The notes: generated by a model from the letters alone, not told the origin. Positions 6,666-29,698 are shown, numbered from the stretch's first letter. The stretch is DNA of 42,203 nt from an uncultured Actinomycetes bacterium (GCA_903868545.1 CAIPVR010000315.1:1-42203); one strand, 5' to 3'. A program made the numbers and translations.

Positions 6666-7429
6666 GTCGGAGGGGCCTCCTCGTCGGATCCGGGCGGGCT
6701 CGGGTGCGGATAGAAGAATCGGACGAGGGCGACGGCGATCGCCATCCCGACCAACTGCATCACGATGAACAGCGGCGCGGAGGCCGGGGCGATCCCGGCG
6801 AAGGTGTCCGACAGGGTGCGAGCCACGGTGACCGCGGGATTGGCGAAGCTGGTCGACGACGTGAACCAGTAGGCCCCGGCGATCCACGCCCCGACCGCGA
6901 ACGGCACCGCCCGGGCACGGCCCGTGCGGACACAGCCCTGGATCACCAGGAGCAGCCCGACCGTGGCCACCACCTCGGAGAGCCACAGCGCCGGCGAGGA
7001 ACGGTCGGTGGTCGAGAACTGCACCGCCGGCAGTTCGAACATCAGGTTGGCCACGACCGCTCCCAGGCAGCCACCCACCACCTGGGCGACCACGTAGAGG
7101 CCCGCGTCGCGCGTGGAGATGGTGCCGAGGAAGCGGTCGGTGAGCGTCACCACCGGGTTGAAATGGGCACCCGACACCGCGCCGAACATGAGGATGAGCC
7201 CGATGAGGGCTCCCCCGGTGGCCGCGGCGTTCTCCAGCAGTTGGAGCCCCACGTCCGACGGCGACAGCCGGGCGGCCATGATCCCGGACCCGATGACCGC
7301 GACGATGAGGAACCCGGTGCCGAGCGCCTCGGCAGCCAGACGCCGGGCCAGGTCGAGTCGGAGGGCACCCGTGCCGGTCTCGGTCTCGACGGCCAGCGAC
7401 GCGTCGGGGACGGGCAGATGTTCGCTCAC
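6662..7429 (-). CDS. Aquaporin/MIP-family channel of the arsenic operon
   Basis: A 255-residue protein with six predicted helices and the two half-helix motifs of the MIP family: SGAHFNPVVTL first (NPV rather than NPA) and SFANPAVTVAR second. Placement between two ArsC-type genes points to arsenite conduction, as known for AqpS in the Sinorhizobium meliloti ars operon, where a channel replaces the ArsB/Acr3 pump. The GTG at 7429 has GGAGGG at good spacing. It overlaps the upstream ArsR fusion as GTGA and the downstream arsC as ATGA. The altered first NPA box should affect pore selectivity (inference). No arsB or acr3 gene is present in the window. Confidence 0.88.
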   Translation of the reverse strand: MSEHLPVPDASLAVETETGTGALRLDLARRLAAEALGTGFLIVAVIGSGIMAARLSPSDVGLQLLENAAATGGALIGLILMFGAVSGAHFNPVVTLTDRFLGTISTRDAGLYVVAQVVGGCLGAVVANLMFELPAVQFSTTDRSSPALWLSEVVATVGLLLVIQGCVRTGRARAVPFAVGAWIAGAYWFTSSTSFANPAVTVARTLSDTFAGIAPASAPLFIVMQLVGMAIAVALVRFFYPHPSPPGSDEEAPPT

Positions 7430-8109
7430 GCAGCCCTCCGGCTCGTGGTGACCGCCCCGATCCGCTCCCGGAGCTCGTGCACGGTTGCGTCGAACGCGCC
7501 GGCGGTGCCGGAGGGCACCGGGTCGGCGATGGACCAGTGCCACCAGCCCTCGCGATCGCCGAGCTCCTCGTGCGCACGGTCGCACACCGTGACGACGAGG
7601 CCCGCCGTCGGCGCATCGGCCAGAAGGCCCGGCATCGCCCCGGACAGATCGGCCCCGGCCCTCCGGGCCGCGGCCACCGCGCCCCGGTGCACCCGTTCGG
7701 CCGGATGCGTCCCCGCCGAGGCCGCCGGACCTCCGGTGAGCGCGGTCCACAACACGGCGGCGAGCTGGCTGCGGGCGGAGTTGTGGGTGCACACGAACAG
7801 CACCTCGGACGGTTCGGCCGGGCAGCGGCCGGCACCGGAGCCGGGCCCGCCGGGAACCAGGTCGGCGAGGGCTCCGTGGCGGAGGTGCACGTAGCGGCGG
7901 CGGCCGTCGCCGCTGGAACGCGACCGGTCGACCAGTCCGGCGGACTCGAGCACCGCGAGGTGGTGGGCCAACAGGTTGGAGCCCAGCCCGAGACGGCGGC
8001 CCAGTTCGGCGGGGGCCCGGTCCGACCACACCAGCTCGTCGACGATCGCCAGTCGTGCCGGGTCCCCCAGCGCCGCGTGACGCGCGGCCCGGTCGTCGAG
8101 GTGGTCCAC
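7426..8109 (-). CDS. ArsR-type regulator fused to an LMW-phosphatase/arsenate reductase domain
   Basis: Residues 1-85 form an ArsR winged helix (AALGDPARLAIVDEL, then LLAHHLAVLESAGLVDRSR, wing DGRRRYVHL). From about residue 95 an LMWP domain follows, with P-loop VCTHNSARS and a late DPVPSG loop. Fusions of this kind are known in actinobacteria. The regulator half has no cysteine, so the classic CVC arsenite site is absent; the only cysteines are at the linker and in the LMWP half. I use the GTG at 8109: CAGACT lies 6 nt upstream and TTGACC 18 nt further, giving a leaderless mRNA. A TTG at 8145 would lengthen it by 12 residues but would lie in the operator. Confidence 0.82.
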   Translation of the reverse strand: MDHLDDRAARHAALGDPARLAIVDELVWSDRAPAELGRRLGLGSNLLAHHLAVLESAGLVDRSRSSGDGRRRYVHLRHGALADLVPGGPGSGAGRCPAEPSEVLFVCTHNSARSQLAAVLWTALTGGPAASAGTHPAERVHRGAVAAARRAGADLSGAMPGLLADAPTAGLVVTVCDRAHEELGDREGWWHWSIADPVPSGTAGAFDATVHELRERIGAVTTSRRAA

Positions 8110-8214: not shown

Positions 8215-10659
8215 TCAGTCGCCCTTCGCCATGTTGGCGAAGAGGGTGCAGTAGTCGAGGAACACGAGACGGGCGATGCCGGTACGGCCGGCGCGGTGCT
8301 TCGCCACGATCACCTCGGCCGTGTCCTTGTCGGGGGTGTCGGGGTGGTACACCTCGTCGCGGTAGAGGAACATCACCACGTCGGCGTCCTGCTCGATCGA
8401 GTTGTGCACCACCACGCCGTTGGCCACGAAGTTGTGGGTGCCCACCACGGTGGCATCGAAGACCTCCCGCTCCCCCATCGGTTCGATGGCCACCACCTCG
8501 TCCCAGAAGACGTCGGAGGTGGCGACCGCGCTCAGTTCCTTGCTGTCGACCGCGTCGGCGATGCGGGCGAGACGCTCGCGGCTGGAGGAACGGGGCCGGT
8601 TCTCCGTGCCCAGGAGGTAGCCGCCGCAGTACGACTCGCCGATGGCCTCGGCGAGCTGCCGCTGGGTCATGCCGAGACGGTCGAGCTCGCGCACCACCAC
8701 GTCGCGCACCTCGCAGGGCACGGTGTCGACGTTCGGGTTGGTGGCCACGGTCGCGAGCACCTCGAGCGCCGCGGCGGCCGCCGCGCCGCGCTCCCCCGCG
8801 ATGCCCACCCGCTCCAGGAAGCGGATCTGGTGCTCGGCTCCGTGCACCCAGAGCCGCCAGCGCGGGCGGCCGCTGCCCACGTCGGTGATGCGTGACTGCA
8901 CGCCCACCCGCAGCAGCAGCAGCTGGAGCCGGTCGATGAGCGTGCGGTGACGGCTCGTGGCGAACAGCCGCACCAGCGGCCGACCCCTCAGTTCCGTGAC
9001 CGACAAGGAACCGATCCGACCGAAGACCTCCGCCACCACCGCGGCGAGGTCCTCGTCGCCGAGCGACGCCGCCGCTGCCGGCATCCGGCCGGAGGAGGCC
9101 CACCGGGCCGCCAGTTCGCCGAGCGGCTCGTCGGGCTGGCCGGACAGGGCCTCGGCCATCGGTACCGGCGACTCGGGCCGGCCCAGGGAGCGGGGCACCG
9201 CCACCCGCGACCCCACGGAGAGTTCGTCGAGGCGGGCCCAGCGGTTCACCGTGCGGAAAGGATGGTTGGCCGTGGCCTCCACCATCCGCCCCGAGCCGAG
9301 GCGCAGCCGGAACACCTGCTTCGTGCCGCTGGGGAAGGCGTGGGTCATCACGGCGGGGACGAGCTTCCAGTCGTCATCGAGGCTCCACACCGGGGTGTCG
9401 CGGGCGCCGCTGTCCAGCAGGTCGCCGAGCGTGACCTCCGTGTTGGTGTCGGCCCGCAGGACGCGGGTGTCGCGGGTGAGGCACCCCGACTCGCGGAGGT
9501 CGGCCAGCATCGGCCGCTTGTCGGAGCGCAGCTCGAGCTGGCGGGACAACTGCGACAGGGCCACCACGGGCGCCTCCAGTTCACGGGCGAGCACCTTGAG
9601 GCCGCGGCTGATCTCGGCCACCTCCACCTGCCGGCTCTCCGCGCCCGAACGGCCCTGCATCAGCTGGAGGTAGTCGACCACGATCATGCCGAGCGGCATG
9701 TCGAGGCGGTCCTGCAGCCGGCGGGCCTTGGAGCGGATCTCCATGACGGTCAGTGCGGGGTTGTCGTCGATCCAGAGCCGGGCCTCGCCGAGCCGGCCCA
9801 TGGCCTTCGTGATCTTCGTCCAATCGGCGTCGGTGAGCCGACCGGTCTTGAGCTTCGAGGCGTCGATCCGCGCCTCGGCCGCGATGAGGCGCTGCGTGAG
9901 CTCCAGATGGCCCATCTCCAGCGAGAAGAACAGCACCGGGAGCTGCTCACGCACTGCGGCGTGACCGGCCATCCCCAGGGCCAGGGCGGTCTTGCCCATG
10001 GCCGGACGGGCGCCCACCACCACCAGCGCACCCGGCTGGAGGCCCGAGAGCATGGCGTCGAGGTCGGTGTAGCCGGTCGGGGTGCCGGTGACCGCGTCGC
10101 CCCGTTCGTAGAGCGCCTCGAGCTGTTCGAGGCTGCGGTCGAGCAACGGTGACAGCTCGGAGAGCGTGTCGGAGTTGCGGCGCTGGGCGACGGCGAAGAT
10201 CGTGCTCTCGGCGGAGTCGATGGTCTTCTCGATGTCGTCGAGGGGGCTGTAGCCCAGCTCGGCGACGTCGTTGGCCGCGGTGATCAGGCGGCGCAGCAGC
10301 GCCTTCTCCTCGACGATCCGTGCGTAGTGCTCCGCGTTGGTGATGGCCGGCGTGTTGGCCTGCAGCGTGAGCAGTGTCGCCCCGCCCCCCACCGACTCGA
10401 GGACGCCGACCCGGTCGAGTTCCTCGGCCACGGTGAGCGGATCCACTCCTCGACCGCTGGCGTAGAGCGCCTGGATCGCGTCGAAGATGTGGCGGTGGGC
10501 CGGCTTGTAGAAGTCGTCGGCCCCGACGATCGTGGCAGCGGCCGACACCGCGTGCTCGCTCAGCAGCATCGCCCCCAGCAGCGACTGCTCGGCCTCCAGG
10601 TTGTGGGGCGGCACCCTCAGTCGTGAGGGCTCGTCGGGCCGTGGGGGGGTGTCGGACAT
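8215..10659 (-). CDS. dnaB: Replicative DNA helicase DnaB, interrupted by an intein
   Basis: An 814-residue precursor. The N-terminal primase-interacting domain (PPHNLEAEQSLLGAMLLS) is followed by the RecA-like helicase core with Walker A GARPAMGKT (216-224), FFSLEM, and Walker B VVDYLQLMQG. The reading is split after LRESG by a 361-residue intein (residues 393-753) and resumes as SIEQDADVVMFLYRDEVY. Removal gives a 453-residue helicase of normal length. The ATG at 10659 has GGAGGA upstream; a longer in-frame reading would run into rplI. DnaB unwinds DNA ahead of the replisome. It follows rpsF-ssb-rpsR-rplI on the same strand, but a 140-bp gap rich in hairpins and DnaA-box-like sites suggests separate control. 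Confidence 0.97.
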   Translation of the reverse strand: MSDTPPRPDEPSRLRVPPHNLEAEQSLLGAMLLSEHAVSAAATIVGADDFYKPAHRHIFDAIQALYASGRGVDPLTVAEELDRVGVLESVGGGATLLTLQANTPAITNAEHYARIVEEKALLRRLITAANDVAELGYSPLDDIEKTIDSAESTIFAVAQRRNSDTLSELSPLLDRSLEQLEALYERGDAVTGTPTGYTDLDAMLSGLQPGALVVVGARPAMGKTALALGMAGHAAVREQLPVLFFSLEMGHLELTQRLIAAEARIDASKLKTGRLTDADWTKITKAMGRLGEARLWIDDNPALTVMEIRSKARRLQDRLDMPLGMIVVDYLQLMQGRSGAESRQVEVAEISRGLKVLARELEAPVVALSQLSRQLELRSDKRPMLADLRESGCLTRDTRVLRADTNTEVTLGDLLDSGARDTPVWSLDDDWKLVPAVMTHAFPSGTKQVFRLRLGSGRMVEATANHPFRTVNRWARLDELSVGSRVAVPRSLGRPESPVPMAEALSGQPDEPLGELAARWASSGRMPAAAASLGDEDLAAVVAEVFGRIGSLSVTELRGRPLVRLFATSRHRTLIDRLQLLLLRVGVQSRITDVGSGRPRWRLWVHGAEHQIRFLERVGIAGERGAAAAAALEVLATVATNPNVDTVPCEVRDVVVRELDRLGMTQRQLAEAIGESYCGGYLLGTENRPRSSSRERLARIADAVDSKELSAVATSDVFWDEVVAIEPMGEREVFDATVVGTHNFVANGVVVHNSIEQDADVVMFLYRDEVYHPDTPDKDTAEVIVAKHRAGRTGIARLVFLDYCTLFANMAKGD
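8401..9483 (-). mobile_element. DnaB intein with an eroded LAGLIDADG region
   Basis: The intein runs from Cys393 (CLTRDTRV, block A) to the terminal VVVHN, with Ser as the +1 residue, all as required for protein splicing. Block B is present (VEATANHPF, with the TxxH pattern), as is block F (REVFDATVVGTHNFVANG). The middle aligns from memory with mycobacterial DnaB inteins (LLLLRVGVQSRI, FLERVGIAGERG, NVDTVPCEV), but no LAGLIDADG-like GDG segment is seen, and the second motif reads EVFGRIGS where an acidic residue is expected. Splicing looks intact while the homing endonuclease looks dead. The insertion point RESG/SIEQ is the known site used by cyanobacterial and other DnaB inteins. Confidence 0.93.
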
Positions 10660-10692
10660 CGGGCCCCATCCTCCGCTCACTGTCCTGTGGGC

Positions 10693-10715
10693 ATCCAGAG
10701 GATCACCCTCTGGAT
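10693..10715. repeat. Inverted repeat in the rplI-dnaB gap
   Basis: ATCCAGAGG (10693-10701) and CCTCTGGAT (10707-10715) form a perfect 9-bp stem with a 5-nt loop, 34 bp upstream of the dnaB start. It could be an attenuator or a protein site in the dnaB leader; no function is recognised. Confidence 0.5.
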
Positions 10716-10719
10716 TTCC

Positions 10720-10802
10720 CGTGGATACGTGCCTGCCGGCGGGGAGGAAGCCTGTGGATGCCCGCCGCCGCCTGTGGACGACGGCGGGCATCCTGTGGAT
10801 CA
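10720..10802 (-). promoter_or_regulatory. Series of DnaA-box-like sites upstream of dnaB
   Basis: Read on the minus strand, four sites share one orientation: GTATCCACG (10728-10720), GCATCCACA (10761-10753), TCGTCCACA (10781-10773) and TGATCCACA (10802-10794). The last three are spaced 20 and 21 bp apart, about two helical turns. The box consensus is TTRTCCACA (established knowledge). They fill the gap before dnaB, and the last one includes the rplI stop codon. Confidence 0.5.
10757..10792 (-). terminator. Hairpin after rplI
   Basis: Perfect 11-bp arms GATGCCCGCCG (10757-10767) and CGGCGGGCATC (10782-10792) around a 14-nt loop that carries one DnaA-box-like site. It starts 7 bp after the rplI stop and could end the rpsF-rplI transcript. 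Confidence 0.5.
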
Positions 10803-11255
10803 GCTCGCGACGACCTCGATGGTGATCGGGAACTGCACGTCGGTGTGGAGTCGGGCCGTCACGTGGTGCGTGCCCAGCTCCTTGATGTGCTCCTCCATGA
10901 GCAGGTCCTTGCGGTCGAGCTCGATGCCGGTCTGCGCGGCCACCGCGTCGACCACCTCGGCGGAGGTGACGGATCCGAACAGGCGGCCGCCCTCGCCGGC
11001 ACGCGCCGACACCTCGATGGTGCGGGGTACGAGCTGGGTGGCGATCTCCTCGGCCGCCTCACGAGCCTTGGCGTCCTTGGCGTCGCGGGCCCGGCGCATG
11101 GCCTCGGCCTGCGCCGTGGCGCCCTCGCTGGCCGGGATCGCCAGGCTCCGAGGCGCGAGGAAGTTCCTCGCGTACCCCTTGGAGACCTCGACGATGTCGC
11201 CGCGCTTGCCGAGCCCGTCCACGTCGGCGCGGAGGATCACCTTCACCGCGGTCAT
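10800..11255 (-). CDS. rplI: 50S ribosomal protein L9
   Basis: A 151-residue protein with the L9 N-terminal domain ([32 protein letters not shown]), a long connecting helix rich in Ala/Arg/Glu, and the C-terminal RNA-binding domain ending ITIEVVAS. Length and domains are typical. L9 binds 23S rRNA near the L1 stalk. The ATG at 11255 overlaps the rpsR stop as ATGA and has GGAGGTGGAGG just upstream. That supports this start over the more usual M/V-KVIL start three codons later. It is the last gene of the rpsF-ssb-rpsR-rplI unit. Confidence 0.97.
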
Positions 11256-11689
11256 GCCTCCACCTCCTCGGTGGCGGCCGTCTCGACCACGGCCTCGTCG
11301 GTGGCGGGCTCGAACTCCTCGGTGGGCGCATCGCTGCGATCGGGACGGGGCCCGTCGCCGCGGTCGCCACGCGGGCCACGACGGTCGTCGCCGTCACGGT
11401 CGCGGTCGCGGCGGCCGCCCCGCTGCGTGGTGACCCGGTTCGTGTAGGGGATGAGCGCCATCTCACGGGCGTTCTTGATCGCCTTGGCGATCTCCCGCTG
11501 CTGCTGCGTGTCGTTCCCCGTGACCCGACGGGCCCGGATCTTGGCGCGGTCGGACATGAACCTGCGCAGCAGGTTGGCGTCCTTCCAGTCCACGTACTCG
11601 ATGCCCTCGGAGTTGAGCACCGACACCTTCTTCTTGACCTTGCGGTTGCTGTCCTTCGGCTTCCCGCGCTTCTGCGGTGGCTTGCCCAT
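11252..11689 (-). CDS. rpsR: 30S ribosomal protein S18 with a long charged C-terminal extension
   Basis: Residues 20-90 are a normal S18 ([26 protein letters not shown], then [17 protein letters not shown]). At 145 residues the protein is far longer than the usual 75-90. The extra 55 residues begin with a basic Arg/Asp/Gly repeat ([20 protein letters not shown]) and end acidic ([22 protein letters not shown]). S18 binds 16S rRNA as a heterodimer with S6, whose gene lies two genes upstream. The start ATG shares its A with the ssb stop (TGATG), and the stop overlaps rplI, so expression of these proteins is coupled. Confidence 0.96.
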
Positions 11690-12135
11690 CAGAACGGCTC
11701 CTCATCGTCGTTGTACCCGCCGGCCGGCGGGGCCGCGGGCGGCGGGGCGTCGTAGCCGCCACCGCCGCCGTCACGGCGTTCGGTCTTGTGCACCTGGGCG
11801 GTGGCCCAGCGGAGGCTGGGGCCCACCTCGTCGGCGAGCACCTCCACCTTCGAGCGCTTCTCGCCGTTGTCGGTCTCCCACGAGCGGGTCTGGAGACGGC
11901 CGGTGACCATCACCCGGGTGCCCTTGGTGAGGGACTCGCTCACGTTCTCGGCGAGGTCACGCCAGCAGACGATGTCGAAGAAGGAGACCTCCTCCTCCCA
12001 CTCGTTGCTCTGCTGGTTGCGCCAGCGCCGGTTCACCGCGAGGCCGAAGTTGGCCACCGCGGCGCCGCTCGGGATGAACCGCAGTTCCGGGTCACGGGTG
12101 AGGTTCCCGATCAGCTCCACGTAGTTGCCTGCCAT
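11689..12135 (-). CDS. ssb: Single-stranded DNA-binding protein
   Basis: A 148-residue protein with the OB fold ([62 protein letters not shown]), then a Gly/Pro/Ala-rich disordered linker and the acidic tip DDEEPF that docks replication and repair partners. It coats single-stranded DNA at forks as a tetramer. The start ATG at 12135 follows GGAAGGGGAACCTCC, and 17 bp separate it from the rpsF stop. The order rpsF-ssb-rpsR-rplI is the standard bacterial arrangement and matches the mycobacterial Rv0053-Rv0056 block (from memory). Confidence 0.97.
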
Positions 12136-12152
12136 TGGAGGTTCCCCTTCCG

Positions 12153-12485
12153 TCAGCCTGCGCCCGCGAGGAGGCCACGGCGGGTGGCCTCCTTCTCGGG
12201 CAGCCGGATCAGCTTGTGGCGGACGACGTCGTCCGCGAGTCGGAGGAAGCGGTCGAGCTCGTCGAGGTTGGGGGCCTCCGTCACGATCTCGAGGACCGTG
12301 TAGACGCCTTCGTGCTTGTGGTTGATGGGGTAGGCGAAGCGTCGCCGGCCCCAGTTGTCCACATTGGGCACGGTGCCGCCGTCGGCGGCCACCATCTCCC
12401 GGACTCGCTCGATCACGGCACGGTTGGCCGCGTCGTCGACGTCCTGGTCGACGATGATCATGAGTTCGTACGCGCGGATCGGCAC
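12153..12485 (-). CDS. rpsF: 30S ribosomal protein S6
   Basis: A 110-residue protein, MPIRAYELMIIVDQDVDDAA at the N terminus, WGRRRFAYPINHKHEGVY in the centre and a basic C-terminal end, as expected of S6. It binds the central domain of 16S rRNA together with S18. The start is GTG at 12485 with AAGGGAGA 6 nt upstream. It is the first gene of the rpsF-ssb-rpsR-rplI unit; two strong hairpins lie in its leader. Confidence 0.97.
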   Translation of the reverse strand: MPIRAYELMIIVDQDVDDAANRAVIERVREMVAADGGTVPNVDNWGRRRFAYPINHKHEGVYTVLEIVTEAPNLDELDRFLRLADDVVRHKLIRLPEKEATRRGLLAGAG

Positions 12486-12503
12486 GTGCGCTCTCCCTTC
12501 GGA

Positions 12504-12539
12504 CCTGGGCCTCGCCCAGGGTCCTGCGGTCCGCAGGAC
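12504..12539 (-). promoter_or_regulatory. Two tandem hairpins in the rpsF leader, possible S6:S18 feedback site
   Basis: CCTGGGC/GCCCAGG (12504-12510 with 12514-12520, 3-nt loop) directly adjoins GTCCTGCG/CGCAGGAC (12521-12528 with 12532-12539, 3-nt loop). Both sit in the leader 20-55 nt before the GTG. A leader motif bound by the S6:S18 complex is known in many bacteria, but I cannot confirm that its core is present here. Confidence 0.5.
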
Positions 12540-12576
12540 AGGGACCCGGTGTCGGCCGGGCGATGTTGACCGGGCG

Positions 12577-12582
12577 AGTGTA
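12577..12582 (-). promoter_or_regulatory. Candidate -10 element of the rpsF operon
   Basis: TACACT on the minus strand, about 90 nt before the rpsF start, would place the two leader hairpins inside the transcript. No clear -35 is seen. Confidence 0.4.
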
Positions 12583-12687
12583 GACGCAGGTGGTGCCGTG
12601 GGCCATCGGGCCCCGGGGTGTGCTGCGTCCGACCGTTCACGACGTCATGGTCGCGAGGGGGTGTGACAGCGGGGCCCCGAGGGCCCG

Positions 12688-12712
12688 CCGGCCGGGGTTC
12701 AGCCCCGGCCGG
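12688..12712 (-). terminator. Terminator hairpin spanning the panB stop codon
   Basis: Arms CCGGCCGGGG (12688-12697) and CCCCGGCCGG (12703-12712) are perfect over 10 bp, with the panB TGA (12701-12699) in the 5-nt loop. There is no T-tract; this would be a GC-only terminator. Confidence 0.6.
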
Positions 12713-13562
12713 AGCCGTAGAGCGCGAGGGCCTCGGACTGCTCGGCGTCGAGGTGGTACGACTCGGCGTCGGCCGGGAACGCCCCGCAGCGCACGTCGGC
12801 GGCGAAGGCCGACATGGCCTCCACCGCGGAGCCCTTGAGCTCGGCGTAGCGGCGCACGAACTTCGGGACCACGCGGTCCTCGAGGCCGAGCACGTCGTGG
12901 AACACCAGCACCTGGCCGTCGCAGTGGCGGCCGGCCCCGATCCCGATCGTGGGGATGTCGAGGGCGTCGGTGACCATCCGGGCCACCTCGTCGGGCACCC
13001 CCTCCAACACGATCGCGAAACACCCGGCGTGCTGGAGGGCCTTGGCGTCGGCCACGAGCTGCAGCGCCGCCTCCGACTCCTTCGCCTGCACCCGGAACCC
13101 GCCCATGGCGTGCACGGACTGCGGGGTGAGGCCGAGGTGGCCCATCACCGGGATCTCGGCGTCGACGAGCGCCTCGATCATCGGCACCCGCTTCCGGCCG
13201 CCTTCCAGCTTGACGCACTGGGCACCGGCGCGGACGAGCTGGGCCGCGTTGCGCACCGTCTCCTCGGTGGACACGTGGTAGCTCATCCAGGGCAGGTCGC
13301 CGACGATGAGGCAGTCCGGCTTGGCCCGGGCCACCGCCGCGGTGTGGTGGGCGAGGTCGTCGACGGTCACCTGGAGGGTGTCGTCGTAGCCGAGGACCAC
13401 CATGGCCACCGAGTCGCCCACCAGGATCATGTCGACCCCGGCCTCGTGGGCGATCCGGGCACCCGGAGCGTCGTAGGCGGTGACCATCACCAGTGGTTCG
13501 GAGCCGTCGCGCGCCTTGCGCGCCCGGATCGAGGGAACGGTGGGTCGTGCGGATGGAGCCAT
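12699..13562 (-). CDS. panB: 3-methyl-2-oxobutanoate hydroxymethyltransferase
   Basis: A 287-residue protein of normal length for PanB, the first committed enzyme of pantothenate synthesis, which adds a hydroxymethyl group from methylene-tetrahydrofolate to 2-oxoisovalerate. Diagnostic stretches are VTAYDAPGARIAHEAGVD, ILVGDSVAMVVLGYDDTL (metal-binding Asp), VKLEGG, MGHLGLTPQSVHAMGGF, IVLEGVP and PTIGIGAGRHCDGQVLVFHD. The ATG at 13562 has AGGAGG 6 nt upstream. panC and panD are not in this window, so the gene stands alone. Its -10 (TACCGT) overlaps that of the small divergent gene at 13633. Confidence 0.97.
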   Translation of the reverse strand: MAPSARPTVPSIRARKARDGSEPLVMVTAYDAPGARIAHEAGVDMILVGDSVAMVVLGYDDTLQVTVDDLAHHTAAVARAKPDCLIVGDLPWMSYHVSTEETVRNAAQLVRAGAQCVKLEGGRKRVPMIEALVDAEIPVMGHLGLTPQSVHAMGGFRVQAKESEAALQLVADAKALQHAGCFAIVLEGVPDEVARMVTDALDIPTIGIGAGRHCDGQVLVFHDVLGLEDRVVPKFVRRYAELKGSAVEAMSAFAADVRCGAFPADAESYHLDAEQSEALALYGSGRG

Positions 13563-20760: not shown

Positions 20761-20815
20761 CGGCGTCGGGCCACCCCGCCGGAAACCCACCCCCGCAGGA
20801 GACCGGAACGACGGC

Positions 20816-21532
20816 ATGACCACCCGCCAGACCCTGACCGTGGGCGCCGACCGCTTCCGGGTCGGGCCGTGGCACGCGGATCGTTCCATCGCGTACCTGG
20901 CCCTCCCGCCGGAGGTGGCCCGGCCGTCCGACGACGGGCTCCGGCGCTGCGTCGACCGGCTCGCCGACGCGGGCTACAGGTCGATCATCACCTCGGCGCT
21001 GCACCCGGAGGAGGCCGGGGCGTTCCTCCGGCTCGGCTTCGCGGAGTACGACCGCCTCCGCGTACTGGCCCACGATCTGCGCGACATCGACCCGCCGCGG
21101 CCGGCGCTCGATCCGTCCGTGCGGCTCCGCCGGGCCCGGCGGGGCGACCGCACCCCGGCCCTGGTGGTCGACGGGCGGGCCTTCCCACCCTTCTGGCGCA
21201 TGGACCGGGCCGGGCTCGCCGAGGCGGAGTCGGCCACACCCTCCCGTCGTTTCCGTGTCGCGGTGCGCAACGGCGTGGTGGGGTACGCCATCACCGGCCG
21301 CGGCGGCAGCCAGGCGTTCCTGCAGCGGCTGGCCACCGATCCCGATCTCGCCGGGCACGGGGTGGGCAGCGCGCTGGTGGTCGACTCCCTGCACTGGGCC
21401 GTCCGGCGCCGCTGCCGACGCCTGCTCGTGAACACCCAGCGCGAGAACGACCGGGCCCTCGACCTGTACCGCCGGCTGGGCTTCCGGCCGACCCCCACCG
21501 ACCTGGTCGTCCTGAGCCGGCCGGTGCCGTGA
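20816..21532 (+). CDS. GNAT family N-acetyltransferase
   Basis: A 238-residue protein. The C-terminal half is a clear GNAT domain: FRVAVRNGVVGYAITGRGG, then FLQRLATDPDLAGHGVGSAL (acetyl-CoA loop, Q/R-x-x-G-x-G/A-like), RLLVNTQRENDRALDLYRRLGF. The N-terminal half (MTTRQTLTVGADRFRVGPWH, SIITSALHPEEAGAFLRLGF) looks like a second, degenerate GNAT unit. The acceptor is unknown. The ATG lies 17 nt after GCAGGAGA. Its stop overlaps the GTG of the DUF6049 gene (GTGA), so it heads a run of co-oriented genes that continues through the kinase and sigma factor. In mycobacteria this spot before the DUF6049 gene holds mutT4 (from memory). Confidence 0.87.
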   Translation: MTTRQTLTVGADRFRVGPWHADRSIAYLALPPEVARPSDDGLRRCVDRLADAGYRSIITSALHPEEAGAFLRLGFAEYDRLRVLAHDLRDIDPPRPALDPSVRLRRARRGDRTPALVVDGRAFPPFWRMDRAGLAEAESATPSRRFRVAVRNGVVGYAITGRGGSQAFLQRLATDPDLAGHGVGSALVVDSLHWAVRRRCRRLLVNTQRENDRALDLYRRLGFRPTPTDLVVLSRPVP

Positions 21533-23730
21533 GGACCGCCGCGCGGCGACCGTCGATCCGGCGGTGGCACCGGGTGGCGGTGGTGACGACCGCGCTGGTC
21601 GCGGTGGTGGCCGCGTCGACCGGCACCGGCCCGTCCGGCGCCGCCGGCGCGCTCCCGCAACAGGCCCCGGGTCCCGCCGGGCCGACGGGCGCCGGTGCCG
21701 CGGACGGTCCGCTCACGATCGCCGGGGTGAGCCCGTGGGTGGCGGCGGACGGCACCTTCGAGGTGCGCTTCTCGCCCACCGTCCTCCCGGAGGGCGCGGT
21801 GCTCCGCTACACGGTCCACCAGCGCCTACGCGAGGGACGCGCCGGTTCGGTGCGAGCCTCGCTCGACACGGTGCTCGACGGCGCCTCCCCGGGGCCGGTC
21901 CTGCGCGGTCCGGTGGAGGTGCCCGCCGCGCAGCTCGGCGACCCGGCGACCGGGCCCGTGCTGAGCATCGCCATCGACCCCGCACGCGGCACCAGCACCC
22001 GCGTCTACGTGCCCGACGCCGGGATCCACCCGGTCACGCTCGAGCTGGTCGACGTCGACGGCCGTGACCTGTGGACCGACACCGTGCTGCTCAACCGGCT
22101 CCCGTCCTCGCCGGTCGAGGGTGCCGACGGGGCACCCGCCCGAATGGCGGTCACGCTGCTGCTGCCCGTGGAGGGCCCACCGAGCCTCGAACCCGACGGC
22201 ACCGCCACACTCGACCCGGTCACACGGTCCGCGGTGGCGTCGGCCACCTCGCTGCTCACCGCCGTGCCGGAGGCTCCGCTCACGCTCGGGCTGCGACCGA
22301 ACACGCTCACGGGCGTGGTGCGTTCCGGTTCCGCCGCCGACGAGGCCTTCGTCCAGGCGCTGCGTGCCCCGGCCGTCCGGGCCTCGGTCGCCCGCAGATC
22401 CGACGTGGCGATCGACGCGGGAGGCCTCGTGGAGGCCGACGCGTCCGACGAGCTGCTCCGCCAGCTGCTCGAGGGCGGCGCCACGCTGAACGAGGTCACC
22501 GGACGTGAACCCCGGGTCGACACGTGGTTGCTGGACGACACCGTGAGCCCGGCCGCACTGCCCGTCCTGGCCGGCGCCGGCACCCGCCGCCTGCTCCTCC
22601 CCGCCGAACGGCTCCGGCTGCCGTCCGGTGTCAGCACCCAGGACGCCCGCTCCCGCGCGCTCGGCCTGCAGGACGGCCAGGGCCTCACCGTGACCGCCGA
22701 GGACCCGTTCCTGACGCTCCGCCTGACCGACCCGCGGCGTGACCCGGGGGTCCGGGCGAACCAGGTGGCGTCGTCGCTGATGTCCGGGTGGTTCGGCGCG
22801 GCGGAGGAGGGTGCCACGGCCTTCCCCGGGCCCTCTGCAGTGGTGGTCGTCCCGCCGGCCACCGACGCCGCGGCGTTGCGCGCGCTCCTGCCCGCCTTCG
22901 CCGACGGCGGTCCGCTCACCACCGATCCCGCCGCCGTGCCCACTGCCGCAGCGCGCCTGGGCGGGCGCGCGGCCACCGCCTCACTGGCCCCGCGCGTGCC
23001 CGCCGACCAGGACGGTCCGGTCCTCGCGACCCGCTCCGGCCGGACGTTGATCGACGCCTACCGCCGGATGGCGGGGACCGCGGAACCCGACCTCGAGCTC
23101 TGGTCGGAGCTCAACTCCGAGATCCTGTCCACGCAGATGGACGCCGGTCGACGGGCCCGGACCAGGGCGGCGATCACCGCGGACATCGAACGCCACGCCG
23201 CTCGCGTCGAACTGCCGCCGCAACGTCGGGTGGTGCTGACCAGTCAGGACGCCACCGTCCCCCTGCGGTTCCGCAACGGTCTGCCCTACCCGGTGCAGGT
23301 GATCGTCCGCGCCAGGTCACCGCGGCTCGACGTGAAGGGCGACGACACGAAGCTGGTCACCCTCCGGCCCGGCGAGAACCGGGTGGACCTCCAAGTGACG
23401 GTCCGTGCGCCCGGCACCGCCCTGCTGCGGCTCGACGTGCGGTCACCCGACGGCGTGATCCAGCTGGGGCGGACCGACCTGCCCGTCACGTCGTCGTCGA
23501 TCTCCGGTGTGGGGGCCGCGCTGTCCGTCGTGTCGTTGCTGGTCCTCCTCGGATGGTGGCTCCTGACCGTACGGCGCCGCCGACGGGACGACGCCCGCAC
23601 TGCCGGCAACCACCCGTCGCAGCGTCGGGGGCCCGACCGGGCCGGGACCGGGGCCCCCGACCGGACCGGTCCCGCGGAGGGCTCCGGGAGCGAGGCCCCG
23701 ACGGCCGGTAGCGTCGGCCCCGGTGGATGA
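21529..23730 (+). CDS. DUF6049-type exported, membrane-anchored protein
   Basis: A 733-residue protein with a signal peptide (RRWHRVAVVTTALVAVVAAS), a large extracellular part, one membrane helix near the C terminus (ISGVGAALSVVSLLVLLGWW), then RRRRRDD and a charged, disordered cytosolic tail. Near residue 560-640 a beta-rich domain (RVVLTSQDATVPLRFRNGLP, VTVRAPGTALLRLDV) resembles an immunoglobulin-like fold. Composition and position between the PcnA-like gene and the kinase match Rv3909 of M. tuberculosis. The GTG overlaps the GNAT stop; an alternative start further in would lose the signal peptide. No enzymatic motif is visible; an envelope-assembly role is inferred from neighbours. Confidence 0.8.
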   Translation: MRTAARRPSIRRWHRVAVVTTALVAVVAASTGTGPSGAAGALPQQAPGPAGPTGAGAADGPLTIAGVSPWVAADGTFEVRFSPTVLPEGAVLRYTVHQRLREGRAGSVRASLDTVLDGASPGPVLRGPVEVPAAQLGDPATGPVLSIAIDPARGTSTRVYVPDAGIHPVTLELVDVDGRDLWTDTVLLNRLPSSPVEGADGAPARMAVTLLLPVEGPPSLEPDGTATLDPVTRSAVASATSLLTAVPEAPLTLGLRPNTLTGVVRSGSAADEAFVQALRAPAVRASVARRSDVAIDAGGLVEADASDELLRQLLEGGATLNEVTGREPRVDTWLLDDTVSPAALPVLAGAGTRRLLLPAERLRLPSGVSTQDARSRALGLQDGQGLTVTAEDPFLTLRLTDPRRDPGVRANQVASSLMSGWFGAAEEGATAFPGPSAVVVVPPATDAAALRALLPAFADGGPLTTDPAAVPTAAARLGGRAATASLAPRVPADQDGPVLATRSGRTLIDAYRRMAGTAEPDLELWSELNSEILSTQMDAGRRARTRAAITADIERHAARVELPPQRRVVLTSQDATVPLRFRNGLPYPVQVIVRARSPRLDVKGDDTKLVTLRPGENRVDLQVTVRAPGTALLRLDVRSPDGVIQLGRTDLPVTSSSISGVGAALSVVSLLVLLGWWLLTVRRRRRDDARTAGNHPSQRRGPDRAGTGAPDRTGPAEGSGSEAPTAGSVGPGG

Positions 23731-25276
23731 CGCGCGGGCCGGACGTCGGGGGCTGGATCCTGCCGCCGCGGCCGGGAGCCTGACCGGCGCCGTCCTCTGC
23801 GGCCGGTACCGGCTGGATCGCCAGATCGGGATGGGCGGCATGGCCCAGGTCTGGGAGGGGACCGACACGGTCCTCGGCCGACGGGTCGCGGTGAAGGTGC
23901 TGCACCCGCACCTGGCCCAGGACCAGGCCTACGTGCACCGCTTCCGTCAGGAGGCCGTGGCCGCCGCGCGGCTGAACGCCCCCGGCATCGTGGGCGTGTT
24001 CGACACCTGCAGCGACGACGGTCTCGAGGCGATCGTCATGGAGCTGCTCGATGCCCGCACGCTGCGCGAACTCCTCGACGAGCGCGGGACCCTGGACGCC
24101 GACACGACCCGGCGGATCGGGCTGCGCCTGCTCGACGCGCTCGAGGCCGCGCACACCGCCGGGCTGGTGCACCGCGACGTGAAGCCGTCGAACATCCTCC
24201 TGTGCACCGACGGCCGGGTGAAGATCGCCGACTTCGGCATCGCCAAGGCCGACGACCACCCGGACCTCACCCGCGACGAGTCCGTGGTCGGGACCGCCTC
24301 GTACCTGGCACCGGAACAGCTCACCTCGGGCGAGGTCGACGGGCGGGCGGACCTCTACTCCCTCGGGCTGGTGCTCTACGAGTGCCTCACCGGTCGGCTC
24401 CCCTTCACCGGCGACACGAGCGCCGCGGTCGCCGTGGCCCGGCTGCACACCGATCCGGTTCCACCCCGCCGCGTGCGCGCCGACGTGCCGCCCTCGCTGG
24501 AGGTCGCGGTCATGGGGGCGCTGGTGAGGGACCCGGCCGGGCGGTACCCCACGGCGGCGGCGTTCCGGGCCGCCCTGCTGGAGCCCGTGGCACCGGTGGT
24601 GCGGGCCCGCCATGCGCCCGCGGAGCCCGACACCGCGGAGACGGAGGCCGTTGCCGGGTTCGGTCGGTCCGAGCGCAGCTGGCTGCTGCGGGCGTTCCTG
24701 ATCCTCCTCGTCACCGCCGCCCTCGTGGTGGCCGGACTGCTGCTGCGGGCCGCACAACAGTCCGACGAGCCGGTGGTGACCACTCCCCCGAGCCCGGCCC
24801 CCCCGGGCGGGGGCGCCCTCCCGGTGGCCCGGATGGTGGCGGTCGACCCGCAGGGCTCCGGCACCTCCGGTGAGAACGACGCACTCGCCGGCGATGCCGC
24901 CGACGGCGACCCGGCGACGGCGTGGCGGACCGAGACCTACGACTCCCCCACGTTCTTCGGCACCAAGAAGGGTGTGGGCCTCGCAGCGGTCCTGCAGGAG
25001 CGGTCACGTATCAGCGGTGTCCGCGTACGCGGCTCGACCAACGGTTGGTCGGGCACGGTGTACGTCCTCGACGGGGCCGACCCTGCGAGGTTCGACCCGG
25101 CGACGGCGACGGCGGTGGCCCCGCTGGACGACGTCCGCGGCCCGGTCGACGTGCCGGTCGACGCGGCGGGCCGGACGGTGGTGCTGTGGATCACGGACCT
25201 GGGGGCGGACGTGGGCGAGGGCCGACACCGCGTGGAGATCTCGGAACTGACGGCGCTCGGCACACCGGGGAGCTGA
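23723..25276 (+). CDS. Membrane Ser/Thr protein kinase with discoidin-like extracellular domain
   Basis: A 517-residue protein. The Hanks-type kinase domain (about 27-290) has the glycine loop IGMGGMAQVWEG, Lys58 in VAVKVL, catalytic HRDVKPSN (Asp152), metal-binding DFG (Asp170) and GTASYLAPEQ, so it should be active. One helix (about 320-342) leads to an extracellular part of about 165 residues (ALAGDAADGDPATAWRTETY, GVRVRGSTNGWSGTVYV) resembling a galactose-binding/discoidin domain. It lies between DUF6049 and the sigma factor, where M. tuberculosis has Rv3910, a MurJ fused to a pseudokinase and a similar ectodomain. Here no MurJ part is present. The GTG overlaps the DUF6049 stop by 8 bp. 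Confidence 0.9.
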   Translation: MDDARAGRRGLDPAAAAGSLTGAVLCGRYRLDRQIGMGGMAQVWEGTDTVLGRRVAVKVLHPHLAQDQAYVHRFRQEAVAAARLNAPGIVGVFDTCSDDGLEAIVMELLDARTLRELLDERGTLDADTTRRIGLRLLDALEAAHTAGLVHRDVKPSNILLCTDGRVKIADFGIAKADDHPDLTRDESVVGTASYLAPEQLTSGEVDGRADLYSLGLVLYECLTGRLPFTGDTSAAVAVARLHTDPVPPRRVRADVPPSLEVAVMGALVRDPAGRYPTAAAFRAALLEPVAPVVRARHAPAEPDTAETEAVAGFGRSERSWLLRAFLILLVTAALVVAGLLLRAAQQSDEPVVTTPPSPAPPGGGALPVARMVAVDPQGSGTSGENDALAGDAADGDPATAWRTETYDSPTFFGTKKGVGLAAVLQERSRISGVRVRGSTNGWSGTVYVLDGADPARFDPATATAVAPLDDVRGPVDVPVDAAGRTVVLWITDLGADVGEGRHRVEISELTALGTPGS

Positions 25277-25280
25277 CCGC

Positions 25281-25910
25281 GTGGCACGCGTACGCCGACG
25301 GACCGACCTCCGGCGCCTCGGCGACGAGCAGCTGGTGGAGCTGGCCGCTGCCGGGGACGGGCCCGCACTGGAGGAACTGCTGGGCCGACACCGCGGCCGG
25401 CTCCACGCCGTGTGCCGACGGGTCTGCCACGACCCCGACGAGGCCGAGGACGCCCTCCAGGACGCCCTGGTCGCCATCACGCGGGGCCTGCCCGGCTTCC
25501 GGGGAGGCTCCTCGTTCAGCACCTGGGCCTCACGCATCGCCACCAACCGCTGCCTCGACGAACTCCGGCGACGTTCGCGCCGTCCCGAGCCGGTCGAGCC
25601 CCACGCCGAACGGCTCGTCCGTGCCGCACCAGAGGCGGCGGCACCCGACACCACGGCCGTGCGCTCCGCCGACCGCGACCTCCTGATCGAGGCCCTGGCC
25701 CGGCTGCCGGAGGACCAACGCGACGTGGTGGTCCTGCGCGACGTGCTCGACCTCGACTACTCGGGCATCGCGGAGGAACTGGGGGTCCCGATCGGCACCG
25801 TCCGCTCCCGTCTGGCCCGGGGACGGGCACGGCTGGCGATGGAGTTGGCCCCGGAGGGGAACCGGAACGACGGCGACGACGTCGGTATCGGGGAGGACCG
25901 AGATGACTGA
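25281..25910 (+). CDS. ECF-type RNA polymerase sigma factor (SigM-like)
   Basis: A 209-residue sigma-70 family protein. Region 2 carries DPDEAEDALQDALVAITRGLPGFRGGSSFSTWASRIATNRCLDE; region 4 carries LPEDQRDVVVLRDVLDLDYSGIAEELGVPIGTVRSRLARGRARL with the helix-turn-helix. There is no extra C-terminal domain, only a short charged tail. It starts with GTG 4 bp after the kinase stop, and its end overlaps the next gene by 8 bp. Order and neighbours match M. tuberculosis sigM (Rv3911), next to an anti-sigma gene and trxB. The overlap with a single-pass membrane protein gene points to control by anti-sigma sequestration. Confidence 0.95.
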   Translation: MARVRRRTDLRRLGDEQLVELAAAGDGPALEELLGRHRGRLHAVCRRVCHDPDEAEDALQDALVAITRGLPGFRGGSSFSTWASRIATNRCLDELRRRSRRPEPVEPHAERLVRAAPEAAAPDTTAVRSADRDLLIEALARLPEDQRDVVVLRDVLDLDYSGIAEELGVPIGTVRSRLARGRARLAMELAPEGNRNDGDDVGIGEDRDD

Positions 25911-26776: not shown

Positions 26777-27121
26777 ATGTCCGACCCCAGTGCCCCGGAG
26801 TCCGCCCGCACGGCCGGCACCGCCACGTCGCCCACCGAGCAGGACTGGACCGACCAGGTCACCGACCTCATCGTCGACACGGTCGACAAGGTCCGGGCCC
26901 GGACCACCGGCCCGATCCTCGAGGGTGCCAAGGGACTCGTCTACGCCGTCGTGGCGATGATCGTCCTCGTCCCGATCATGATCATGGGCACCGCCGGTGC
27001 GGTCCGCTTCCTCAACTGGCTGCTGCCGGGGGACGTGTGGGTCGCCTACGCCGTCCTCGGTGCGGTCCTCGTGCTCCTCGGGGCCTGGTTGTGGTCCAAG
27101 CGCGCCCCGCGCGTCCGCTGA
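26777..27121 (+). CDS. Small two-helix membrane protein of unknown function
   Basis: A 114-residue protein. The first 50 residues are polar and contain a likely amphipathic helix (VTDLIVDTVDKVRARTTGPI). Two hydrophobic helices follow (LVYAVVAMIVLVPIMIMGTA and WVAYAVLGAVLVLLGAWLW), ending in a basic WSKRAPRVR. TAGGCT at 26763-26768 lies 8 nt before the ATG and there is no ribosome-binding site, so the transcript would be leaderless and independent of the sigma unit. It sits between the putative anti-sigma gene and trxB. I do not recognise the family; a membrane-organising role would be a guess. Confidence 0.75.
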   Translation: MSDPSAPESARTAGTATSPTEQDWTDQVTDLIVDTVDKVRARTTGPILEGAKGLVYAVVAMIVLVPIMIMGTAGAVRFLNWLLPGDVWVAYAVLGAVLVLLGAWLWSKRAPRVR

Positions 27122-27194
27122 CCCGGTCCGCTCCCACGACCACATCTGTCCGCCCACCTGCCCCGAACTCCTCGACCCCCCCCCGGAGGCCACC

Positions 27195-28187
27195 GTGTCC
27201 GCCGAGCCGAACGGCACCGACCGCAACGACGACGTCCGCCCCGTGGTGATCGTGGGATCCGGTCCCGCCGGACTCACCGCCGCGATCTACACCGCCCGCG
27301 CCAACCTCCAGCCGCTCCTGGTGGAGGGTGAACCCTCCTCCACCAGCGACCAACCGGGCGGTCAGCTGATGCTCACCACCGAGGTGGAGAACTTCCCGGG
27401 ATTCCCCGACGGGATCATGGGACCGGAGCTGATGGCGTCGTTCCGCCAGCAGGCCATGCGGTTCGGCACCGACATCCGCACCGAGAAGGTCACCCGGGTC
27501 GACCTCTCGTCCCGACCGTTCGGGGTGTGGGTCGGTGATCCCGAGGCGCCGGAACCCACCTACCGGGGCCAGGCGCTGATCGTGGCCACCGGGGCCAGTT
27601 CGCTGATGCTGGGGATCGAGGCGGAGCGGCGGCTGCTCGGGCACGGGCTGTCCACCTGCGCCACCTGCGACGGGTTCTTCTTCCGCGACCAGGACATCTG
27701 CGTGGTCGGCGGCGGCGACTCGGCGCTCGAGGAGGCCATGTTCCTCACCCGGTTCGCCCGCTCCGTGACCGTGATCCACCGCCGCAAGGAGTTGCGGGCC
27801 TCCAAGATCATGCAGGACCGGGCGTTCGCCAACGAGAAGCTGTCGTTCCTCTGGGACTCGGTGGTGGACGACATCGTCGGCGAGACCACCGTGGAGGGCG
27901 TGGTGGTGCGCGACGTGCAGACCGGCGAGGTGACCACCAAGCCCTACACCGGTGTGTTCGTCGCCATCGGCCACCGGCCGAACACCGACCTCTTCCGCGG
28001 ACAGCTCGACCTGAAGGACAACGGCTACCTCATCACGGCTGCCGACACGTCCCGTACCTCGGTCGAAGGGGTGTTCGCCTGCGGCGACGTGCAGGACGAC
28101 TGGTATCGCCAGGCCATCACGGCCGCCGGCAGCGGCTGCATGGCGGCGATCGACGCTGAACGCTGGCTGGAGGCGCAGGGCCACTGA
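27195..28187 (+). CDS. trxB: Thioredoxin reductase
   Basis: A 330-residue flavoprotein with the FAD fingerprint VVIVGSGPAGLTAAIYTARA, the redox-active STCATCDGFFFRD (Cys155, Cys158), the NADPH fingerprint VVGGGDSALEEAMFL and the final FAD motif GVFACGDVQDDWYRQAITAAGSG (read in two parts). It moves electrons from NADPH to thioredoxin, whose gene comes next. I chose the GTG at 27195: GGAGG lies 5 nt upstream. A run of nine C bases sits at 27176-27184, just before that ribosome-binding site. A strong hairpin follows the stop and separates trxB from trxA, so the two are not simply one transcript. Confidence 0.96.
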   Translation: MSAEPNGTDRNDDVRPVVIVGSGPAGLTAAIYTARANLQPLLVEGEPSSTSDQPGGQLMLTTEVENFPGFPDGIMGPELMASFRQQAMRFGTDIRTEKVTRVDLSSRPFGVWVGDPEAPEPTYRGQALIVATGASSLMLGIEAERRLLGHGLSTCATCDGFFFRDQDICVVGGGDSALEEAMFLTRFARSVTVIHRRKELRASKIMQDRAFANEKLSFLWDSVVDDIVGETTVEGVVVRDVQTGEVTTKPYTGVFVAIGHRPNTDLFRGQLDLKDNGYLITAADTSRTSVEGVFACGDVQDDWYRQAITAAGSGCMAAIDAERWLEAQGH

Positions 28188-28323: not shown

Positions 28324-28647
28324 ATGGGTGCCATCCAACAGCTCTCCGAAGCGACCTTCGCCGAGGAGGTGAACGCCTCCGACGTGCCGGTCGTGGTGGA
28401 CTTCTGGGCCGAGTGGTGCGGGCCCTGCAAGATGATCGCCCCCATCCTCGAGGAGATCGCCACGGAGCAGGACGGCAAGGTCCGTGTCGCCAAGGTCAAC
28501 GTCGACGAGAACCCCGGCCTGGCGCGACAGTTCAATGTGATGAGCATCCCTACGATGATCGTCTTCAAGGATGGTTCCGAGGATCAGCGCATCGTCGGTG
28601 CCAAGGGGAAGCCCCAGCTGCTCGAGGATCTCGCCCCCTACCTCTGA
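28324..28647 (+). CDS. trxA: Thioredoxin
   Basis: A 107-residue thioredoxin of standard length: VVVDFWAEWCGPCKMIAPIL with Cys32 and Cys35, VNVDENPGLARQFNVMSIPT with the cis-proline, and IVGAKGKPQLLEDLAPYL at the end. It reduces protein disulfides in the cytosol using electrons from trxB. GGAAGGA lies 7 nt before the ATG. In M. tuberculosis the equivalent gene (trxC, Rv3914) lies between trxB2 and the cwlM gene, as here. It could also supply electrons to the arsenate reductase encoded elsewhere in this window (inference). Confidence 0.97.
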   Translation: MGAIQQLSEATFAEEVNASDVPVVVDFWAEWCGPCKMIAPILEEIATEQDGKVRVAKVNVDENPGLARQFNVMSIPTMIVFKDGSEDQRIVGAKGKPQLLEDLAPYL

Positions 28648-28726
28648 GGTCGCCGGCAGCCGGTAGTGTCGGGCCCGATCGCAGTCCGGCGACCGGCGCG
28701 GCCGGTCCCTCCTCCAGGATCCGACC

Positions 28727-29698
28727 CTGACCCTCGCCGCTCTCCCGCTGTCGTCCGGCTCCGCCGGGCCCGCCGTCGCCGACCTGCGCCGTCGTCTCGC
28801 CGCGGCCGGCCACGCCACCGACGACCCGGCCGACGCCTACGGGCGGTCCACCGAGCAGGCGGTCCGCCGCTTCCAACGCGCCAAGGGACTGCGTGAGGAC
28901 GGCGTGTGCGGACCCTCCACCTGGTCCGCACTCGTGGAATCCGAGTTCGGTCTCGGCGACCGCCTGTTGTGCCTCCGGTCGCCGATGATGCGCGGCGACG
29001 ACGTGGCCGAACTGCAGCTTCGGCTCGGTGCCATGGGCTTCGACGCGGGCCGTGTCGACGGCATCTTCGGCGGCGCCACCCGACGAGCCGTCGGCGACTT
29101 CCAGCGCAACGCGGGTCTCGTCTGTGACGAGGTCTGCGGCCCCGACACGGTGGAGGCACTGCGCCGCCTCGAGGGCCGCGCCGGAGAGGCAACGGTCACT
29201 GCGGTACGTGAGCGGGAGCGGCTCCGCCGCAACACCGGTCCGCTGCACGGGATCGAGGTGGTGGTCGGCGGCGACGAGCGTGCGAGGTCCGTGGCCACCC
29301 GGCTCGCCGCGGCGCTCCGCGAGACCGGGGTCGAGGCGCATCTGGCCGAGGGCGACTGGTCCGAGCAGGCGGCCCACGCCAACGAGCGGGACGCCACCGT
29401 CTACCTCGGGATCAGCGTCACCGACAGCCCCGGCATCGAGGCCGCCTACTTCTCGGTCCCGGGGTTCGAGTCCCATGGCGGTCGGCGACTCGCCGAACTC
29501 GTGGTCGAGGAGCTGCCCGCCCCGCCGGGATGGGGCGTCGGTGCCATCCGGGGAATGCGCCTCGCCGTACTTCGGGAGACCCGGGCACCGGCGGTGGTGC
29601 TCCAGCTGGGCGGCCCCGACCAGGTGGAGGAGCAGGGTGGCCTCGTGGTCACCTCGCTCGTGCGAGCGCTCCGTCTCTGGTCGTCCGACCCGGTCTGA
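28727..29698 (+). CDS. CwlM-like protein: two peptidoglycan-binding domains and a degenerate amidase_3 domain
   Basis: A 323-residue protein. The first PG-binding repeat is VADLRRRLAAAGHATDD to FQRAKGLREDGVCGPSTW; the second is VAELQLRLGAMGFDAGRVDG to FQRNAGLVCDEVCGPDT. An amidase_3-like domain follows, but where the zinc His and catalytic Glu belong it reads IEVVVGGDER and VLQLGGPD, so hydrolysis seems impossible. M. tuberculosis CwlM (Rv3915), also inactive, activates MurA when phosphorylated. No ATG, GTG or TTG precedes the first repeat; the only fitting start is CTG at 28727, with AGGA 8 nt upstream. A GTG at 28904 would remove most of repeat one. TAGTGT at 28664-28669 may be the -10. Confidence 0.85.
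   Translation: MTLAALPLSSGSAGPAVADLRRRLAAAGHATDDPADAYGRSTEQAVRRFQRAKGLREDGVCGPSTWSALVESEFGLGDRLLCLRSPMMRGDDVAELQLRLGAMGFDAGRVDGIFGGATRRAVGDFQRNAGLVCDEVCGPDTVEALRRLEGRAGEATVTAVRERERLRRNTGPLHGIEVVVGGDERARSVATRLAAALRETGVEAHLAEGDWSEQAAHANERDATVYLGISVTDSPGIEAAYFSVPGFESHGGRRLAELVVEELPAPPGWGVGAIRGMRLAVLRETRAPAVVLQLGGPDQVEEQGGLVVTSLVRALRLWSSDPV

Follow-up and report, generated by a model that had tools for sequence, protein, structure and literature searches.

A probable unfused, catalytically intact counterpart of the mycobacterial MurJ pseudokinase Rv3910 in an uncultured Actinomycetes bacterium

Within a 42,203-nucleotide stretch of DNA from an uncultured Actinomycetes bacterium (hereafter the window, which is the whole of C315, one of the 335 contigs in a draft genome), we analyzed a transmembrane kinase gene that is best explained, together with the mechanism proposed below, as an unfused form of the kinase and ectodomain portion of Rv3910 in which the catalytic residues are intact, an explanation we regard as probable. 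It is, moreover, very likely from sequence comparison that murJ and the kinase were ancestrally separate neighbours, that fusion to a dead kinase arose secondarily, and that in the lineage of the window murJ subsequently moved away from this locus. In mycobacteria, the MurJ pseudokinase is an important and puzzling regulator of an essential step in cell-wall synthesis, and living relatives with an intact, MurJ-separate kinase reveal where that pseudokinase came from.

The kinase gene and its locus across the phylum

The gene reads from a GTG at 23723 to a stop ending at 25276 and carries the motifs of a Hanks-type Ser/Thr protein kinase, both by its Pfam Pkinase match (E 1.3e-44) and in a residue table across homologues. 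The original prediction had named Lys58, Asp152, Asn157 and Asp170 as retained, and all four are found in the 517-aa frame along with the alpha-C glutamate, completing an intact catalytic set (K58, E77, HRD D152, N157 and DFG D170, numbered from the GTG). The kinase accordingly looks active, intact motifs being by themselves no proof of activity. At its N-terminus (23723-23800) the window protein reads VDDARAG where several relatives from family f1 have a Thr motif (DETRVG, EQTQIDG); this motif resembles FHA-binding sites and is absent from the window protein.

Features of the kinase locus, in window coordinates
Feature	Position	Strand	Basis and remarks
GNAT acetyltransferase, upstream neighbour conserved in the class	20804..21532	+	start approximate
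DUF6049 membrane protein	21559..23730	+	E 4e-14; start approximate; 8-base overlap with kinase start
Free transmembrane Ser/Thr kinase	23723..25276	+	517 aa, GTG start; frame call and Pfam
Kinase domain, about aa 27-285	23801..24577	+	Pfam PF00069, E 1.3e-44; residue table across homologues
Predicted transmembrane helix, aa 321-341	24683..24745	+	hydropathy scan
Predicted extracytoplasmic CBM32-like jelly-roll domain, aa 363-517	24809..25273	+	AlphaFold2, VIA, profile matches
ECF sigma factor, SigM-like	25281..25910	+	NF007225, 4.9e-41, under its cut-off
Putative anti-SigM, one apparent membrane segment	25903..26736	+	position and sequence; 8-base overlap with sigM
TrxB-like reductase	27087..28187	+	family match; start approximate
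TrxA	28324..28647	+	gene position; homologous neighbours in relatives
CwlM-like protein, two PG-binding domains and degenerate amidase domain	28766..29698	+	start tentative; without the mycobacterial phosphorylated C-terminal tail

The predicted correspondence of the neighbours (DUF6049; SigM, TrxB, TrxA, CwlM) to Rv3909-Rv3915 is borne out by family matches, and for TrxA by position and homology. SigM is the best equivalog for the ECF sigma factor downstream of the kinase, a PG_binding match supports the CwlM-like neighbour, and ParB and TrxB likewise rest on family matches, with ParA assigned from position and homology in relatives; the putative anti-SigM returned no informative match in family searches. 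The open frame of the CwlM-like protein continues, still homologous, upstream of its first ATG/GTG/TTG over window positions 28667-28904, a stretch that covers a first PG-binding domain.

To place this arrangement in context, we compared about 60 related loci, which were picked by ectodomain match and are unevenly sampled. The profile, built from 24 ectodomains, finds matches in 134 of 296 genomes of the phylum and in 122 of 198 genomes of the class; among these matches, similar kinases at other loci (for example L113-L115, L118-L120, L123 and L124) were excluded as orthologues. A scan of the genome contigs with P0001 returned 2 loci, one of them a close relative. The usual Actinomycetota locus runs DUF6049-murJ-(degV)-kinase-sigM-trxB-trxA-cwlM, and the fullest order is pcnA<, HDAC<, GNAT>, DUF6049>, murJ>, degV>, kinase>, sigM>, trxB>, trxA>, cwlM>, <parB, <parA, with different groups lacking different pieces of it in the neighbourhoods read. 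In G434, G440, G399, G364, G355 and G336, which belong to other orders of the class, murJ adjoins the kinase, as it also does in other families of the window's own order.

Several further patterns were seen at these loci. A DegV-family gene (in L066 at 6992-7828, Pfam-confirmed, and its equivalents) separates murJ from the kinase across much of the class, and persists after the departure of murJ in several families. In a subgroup of the class (L132, L133 and L207-L209), DUF6049 and murJ are gone from the locus, leaving a short pseudokinase followed by sigM. In five loci (L054 from G008, L206, L215, L216 and L217), no sigM match immediately follows the kinase, and much of the remaining locus is kept.

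The kinase is a separate gene in all sampled lineages except family f50, where it is dead and forms part of a MurJ fusion; f50 is Mycobacterium-like on the strength of a match at about 1e-128 between the pseudokinase of its locus L105 and the solved chains of the Rv3910 pseudokinase (3UQC/3OUN/3OTV). Throughout the window's order, the catalytic motifs are kept, where covered, in every homologue examined (about 35 sequences); the glycine loop of L217 is absent from the frame as read. Elsewhere, motifs are lost in f45, f50, f54, f57, f74, f77, f37 and f34, and within the class in f25, f26, f101, f106 and f109, with the catalytic Asp lost in L116 and L140. The kinase is dead yet unfused in several of these lineages, including f45 (L102-L104), which we infer to be Streptomyces-like.

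Ectodomain, proposed mechanism and candidate partners

The predicted resemblance of the ectodomain to that of Rv3910 held up, as the ectodomain profile matches the MurJ-fusion proteins of f50 (E about 1e-15 to 1e-24) and L105 is an Rv3910-type pseudokinase; at the level of profile matches, homology between the window ectodomain and that of Rv3910-type MurJ-pseudokinase fusions is confirmed. Structure prediction with AlphaFold2 (pLDDT 94.8, pTM 0.90) gave a confidently predicted CBM32-like fold, whose best VIA-align match is the chitosan-binding module 4zy9 (Z 15.5, rmsd 2.2, 125 residues) and which Foldseek groups with CBM32 and F5/8 type C modules (E 2.1e-6). The likeness to these modules is one of predicted fold (Z up to 15.5), whereas sequence identity is about 10-20%. 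A Pfam search at E up to 0.1 reported no CBM32 or F5/8 match for the window protein, and the ectodomain sequence had no match among solved structures, leaving the predicted fold as the only informative comparison. CBM32-like folds also occur in proteins without sugar binding, and the shared modelled fold does not by itself establish it.

We tentatively propose a single-pass receptor kinase whose CBM32-like outer domain would bind a cell-envelope glycan, e.g., peptidoglycan or a lipid-linked sugar. Glycan binding would bring kinase domains together, leading to autophosphorylation of the activation loop, after which the kinase, now active, would phosphorylate envelope-synthesis or SigM-pathway proteins. 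The broader evolutionary scenario is plausible but equally tentative: the ancestor of Actinomycetota may have had a glycan-sensing receptor kinase that carried a CBM32-like ectodomain, differed from the PASTA kinases and was linked to lipid II flipping and SigM, and the catalytic domain of this kinase may have died at least three times and become a scaffold, in mycobacteria through fusion to MurJ.

As to partners, a hand recount of the 45 TrxB-bearing loci in a tallied set that over-represents family f1 found the kinase adjacent to sigM in 41/45 and to murJ in 23/45. The link to sigM is kept more often than that to murJ, which on this gene-order evidence makes the SigM pathway no weaker a candidate than MurJ. 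A stronger version, in which the kinase would mainly serve that pathway, e.g., by phosphorylating the anti-sigma factor or SigM upon sensed envelope damage, strikes us as rather doubtful. Besides the adjacency counts, it draws on the tight packing of the genes, with small gaps or overlaps of 4-8 bases, and on lineages where sigM still follows the kinase at loci without murJ and DUF6049; however, adjacency differs from interaction and is kept by dead kinases too, and no sigM match lies beside the kinase in L054, L206 and L215-L217.

The mycobacterial circuit comprises PknB, FhaA, MurJ and CwlM, and in the Rv3910-type fusion a PknB-phosphorylated threonine recruits the FHA domain of FhaA. The partner of M. 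tuberculosis CwlM depends on its phosphorylation, MurJ being bound by the non-phosphorylated form and FhaA by the form phosphorylated at T382; the PknB sites T382/T386 lie in the C-terminal tail of the protein (PMC6180346). An analogue of this circuit in the window's lineage, with the kinase controlling lipid II flipping in trans through phosphorylation of MurJ or CwlM, appears unlikely. In keeping with it, murJ and the kinase were in all probability ancestrally adjacent, and the genome encodes an orthologous murJ, a PknB with PASTA repeats (contig C270), and FhaA. The search for an FhaA homologue succeeded both through an FhaA_N domain, found in 18/18 genomes searched including that of the window, and through a frame on C10, which is followed by FHA-like and PP2C-like frames, taken on sequence and gene order to be FhaB and PstP. 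Against it, the window-lineage CwlM stops short of the T382/T386 tail (PMC6180346), the mycobacterial PTGTFTF being absent; the MurJ on contig C329 ends soon after its last membrane segment, without the long mycobacterial C-terminal linker; MurJ N-terminal tails differ strongly among relatives; and murJ is no longer in the locus. Since both the CwlM tail and the MurJ linker are absent, the mycobacterial circuit is not transferable as it stands. The absence of the tail weakens the earlier suggestion that the kinase could act on CwlM. The amidase domain of the window-lineage CwlM looks degenerate, and linker sequences vary. We also observed, on reading the sequence, two further PASTA-like proteins after PknB on C270 (L017, 5433-7603), with similar PASTA matches near PknB in G004.

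Kinase ancestry and the displacement of murJ

We next consider the ancestry of the kinase, for which a placement with PknB would have contradicted the original prediction. In a careful kinase tree, the locus kinases and all pseudokinases split from PknB, PknA and other kinases with support 89/89, and the window kinase falls in the locus clade of its own order (99/94), away from PknB; some placements in this tree are unsure because the pseudokinases are long branches, and with the pseudokinases removed the split has an SH-aLRT of 94. Constraining the same-order kinases to group with PknB costs 25 log-likelihood units, so this grouping is disfavoured only marginally (p-AU 0.056). The trees offer moderate support for grouping the kinase with the locus kinases rather than PknB. 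The alternative, a PknB-family paralogue that entered the locus by recruitment and lacks orthology to the Rv3910 pseudokinase, is disfavoured by these trees, the AU result being marginal, and we consider it very improbable overall: the best PDB sequence matches are PknA and PknB, but such likeness is expected for any intact kinase, the ectodomain is shared with the locus kinases, PASTA domains are absent, and the position between murJ/DUF6049 and sigM is constant throughout the phylum.

For the direction of change, we built a quick tree from TrxB, TrxA, ParB and ParA of the same loci (59 loci) and counted changes by parsimony. Fusion requires 1 change on this neighbour-gene tree, the intact/dead state 3, and murJ position 6, where the direction from intact to dead assumes that dead kinases never regain all motifs. 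Because unfused kinases prevail in the phylum and the tree needs a single fusion change and three intact/dead changes, the comparison supports a free active kinase as the ancestral state, from which the mycobacterial fusion to a dead kinase is derived. The original prediction of an ancestral state therefore stands for the free active kinase and fails for the absence of murJ, which is derived, given that murJ adjoins the kinase in relatives. Its other suggestion, a split of the fusion, was not borne out. That the gene is the product of such a split, with MurJ discarded, has in its favour nothing beyond the present absence of murJ; the fusion was seen only in f50 and needs one change, murJ is a separate adjacent gene in relatives within the order and the class, and a dead kinase would need to recover all catalytic residues. 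Parsimony on the neighbour-gene tree largely rules out gene fission, and we assign it only a very slight probability.

The genome search for murJ found full copies on contigs C329 and C150, neither beside the kinase, and a weaker MATE-like match on C41. The C150 copy adjoins steA and belongs to a separate paralogue clade. In a MurJ tree from a quick search, with SH-aLRT supports and no bootstrap, the C329 copy groups with relocated MurJs from families f1, f3, f6 and f7 (SH-aLRT 98), this clade is sister to the in-locus MurJs of f8, f10 and f15 (SH-aLRT 99), and both together are nested among the in-locus MurJs of the phylum. The four families also have the relocation site in common (SBP-vWA-h251-murJ> <proB <obgE), in which a solute-binding gene, a vWA gene, a 251-aa gene and murJ face proB and obgE, the neighbourhoods being partial in some genomes. 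The simplest reading of tree and site is one relocation of murJ in the window's part of the order, and by the same comparisons the absence of murJ from the window locus is a separate, derived change. We considered a foreign replacement for the C329 murJ, which is ruled out as its tree position fits vertical descent. Separately, a distant-type MurJ lies at the relocated site in L191 (G007) and at the ancestral locus in L063 (G037, 10429-13005), and these two look like in-place replacements by foreign copies.

The predicted absence of a MurJ half beside the kinase was confirmed. The DUF6049 stop overlaps the kinase start by 8 bases, leaving no adjacent murJ frame, and the SigM start lies 4 bases past the kinase stop; with this spacing, no assembly gap conceals murJ. 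The same arrangement is found in about 12 genomes of the same family, including the one-contig, 4.66-Mb G004. An assembly break or misread frame, for which the draft state of the genome could be cited, is ruled out as the cause by the overlap on one contig and by the identical order in the one-contig relative, and retains virtually no probability.

Comparison with known systems

Our literature search, which did not reach most subscription papers and so yields a weak negative, found no description of the free kinase. Free kinases of this type permit direct tests of the ectodomain ligand, of the kinase substrates, and of the function left after catalysis is lost, and would add to the PASTA kinases a second class of receptor kinase at the cell envelope. 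With PknB-type PASTA kinases (NF033483), the window kinase shares a single-pass receptor architecture and a similar kinase domain, but its predicted ectodomain is CBM32-like where theirs is made of PASTA domains, for which a Pfam search found no match in the window kinase; it occupies a separate tree position, and its NF033483 score of 349.5 bits is below the cut-off of 450. The Streptomyces-like pseudokinase of f45 is likewise a separate gene, located downstream of murJ and followed by sigM, and has the shared ectodomain, whereas its catalytic motifs are lost. Rv3910 itself (MurJ/MviN; 3UQC, 3OUN, 3OTV) resembles the window gene in its locus between DUF6049 and SigM, its kinase-like domain, its one membrane helix and its homologous ectodomain, and differs in that the MurJ domain is part of the same polypeptide there and a separate gene here, and in that the catalytic residues absent from the fusion are intact in the window kinase.
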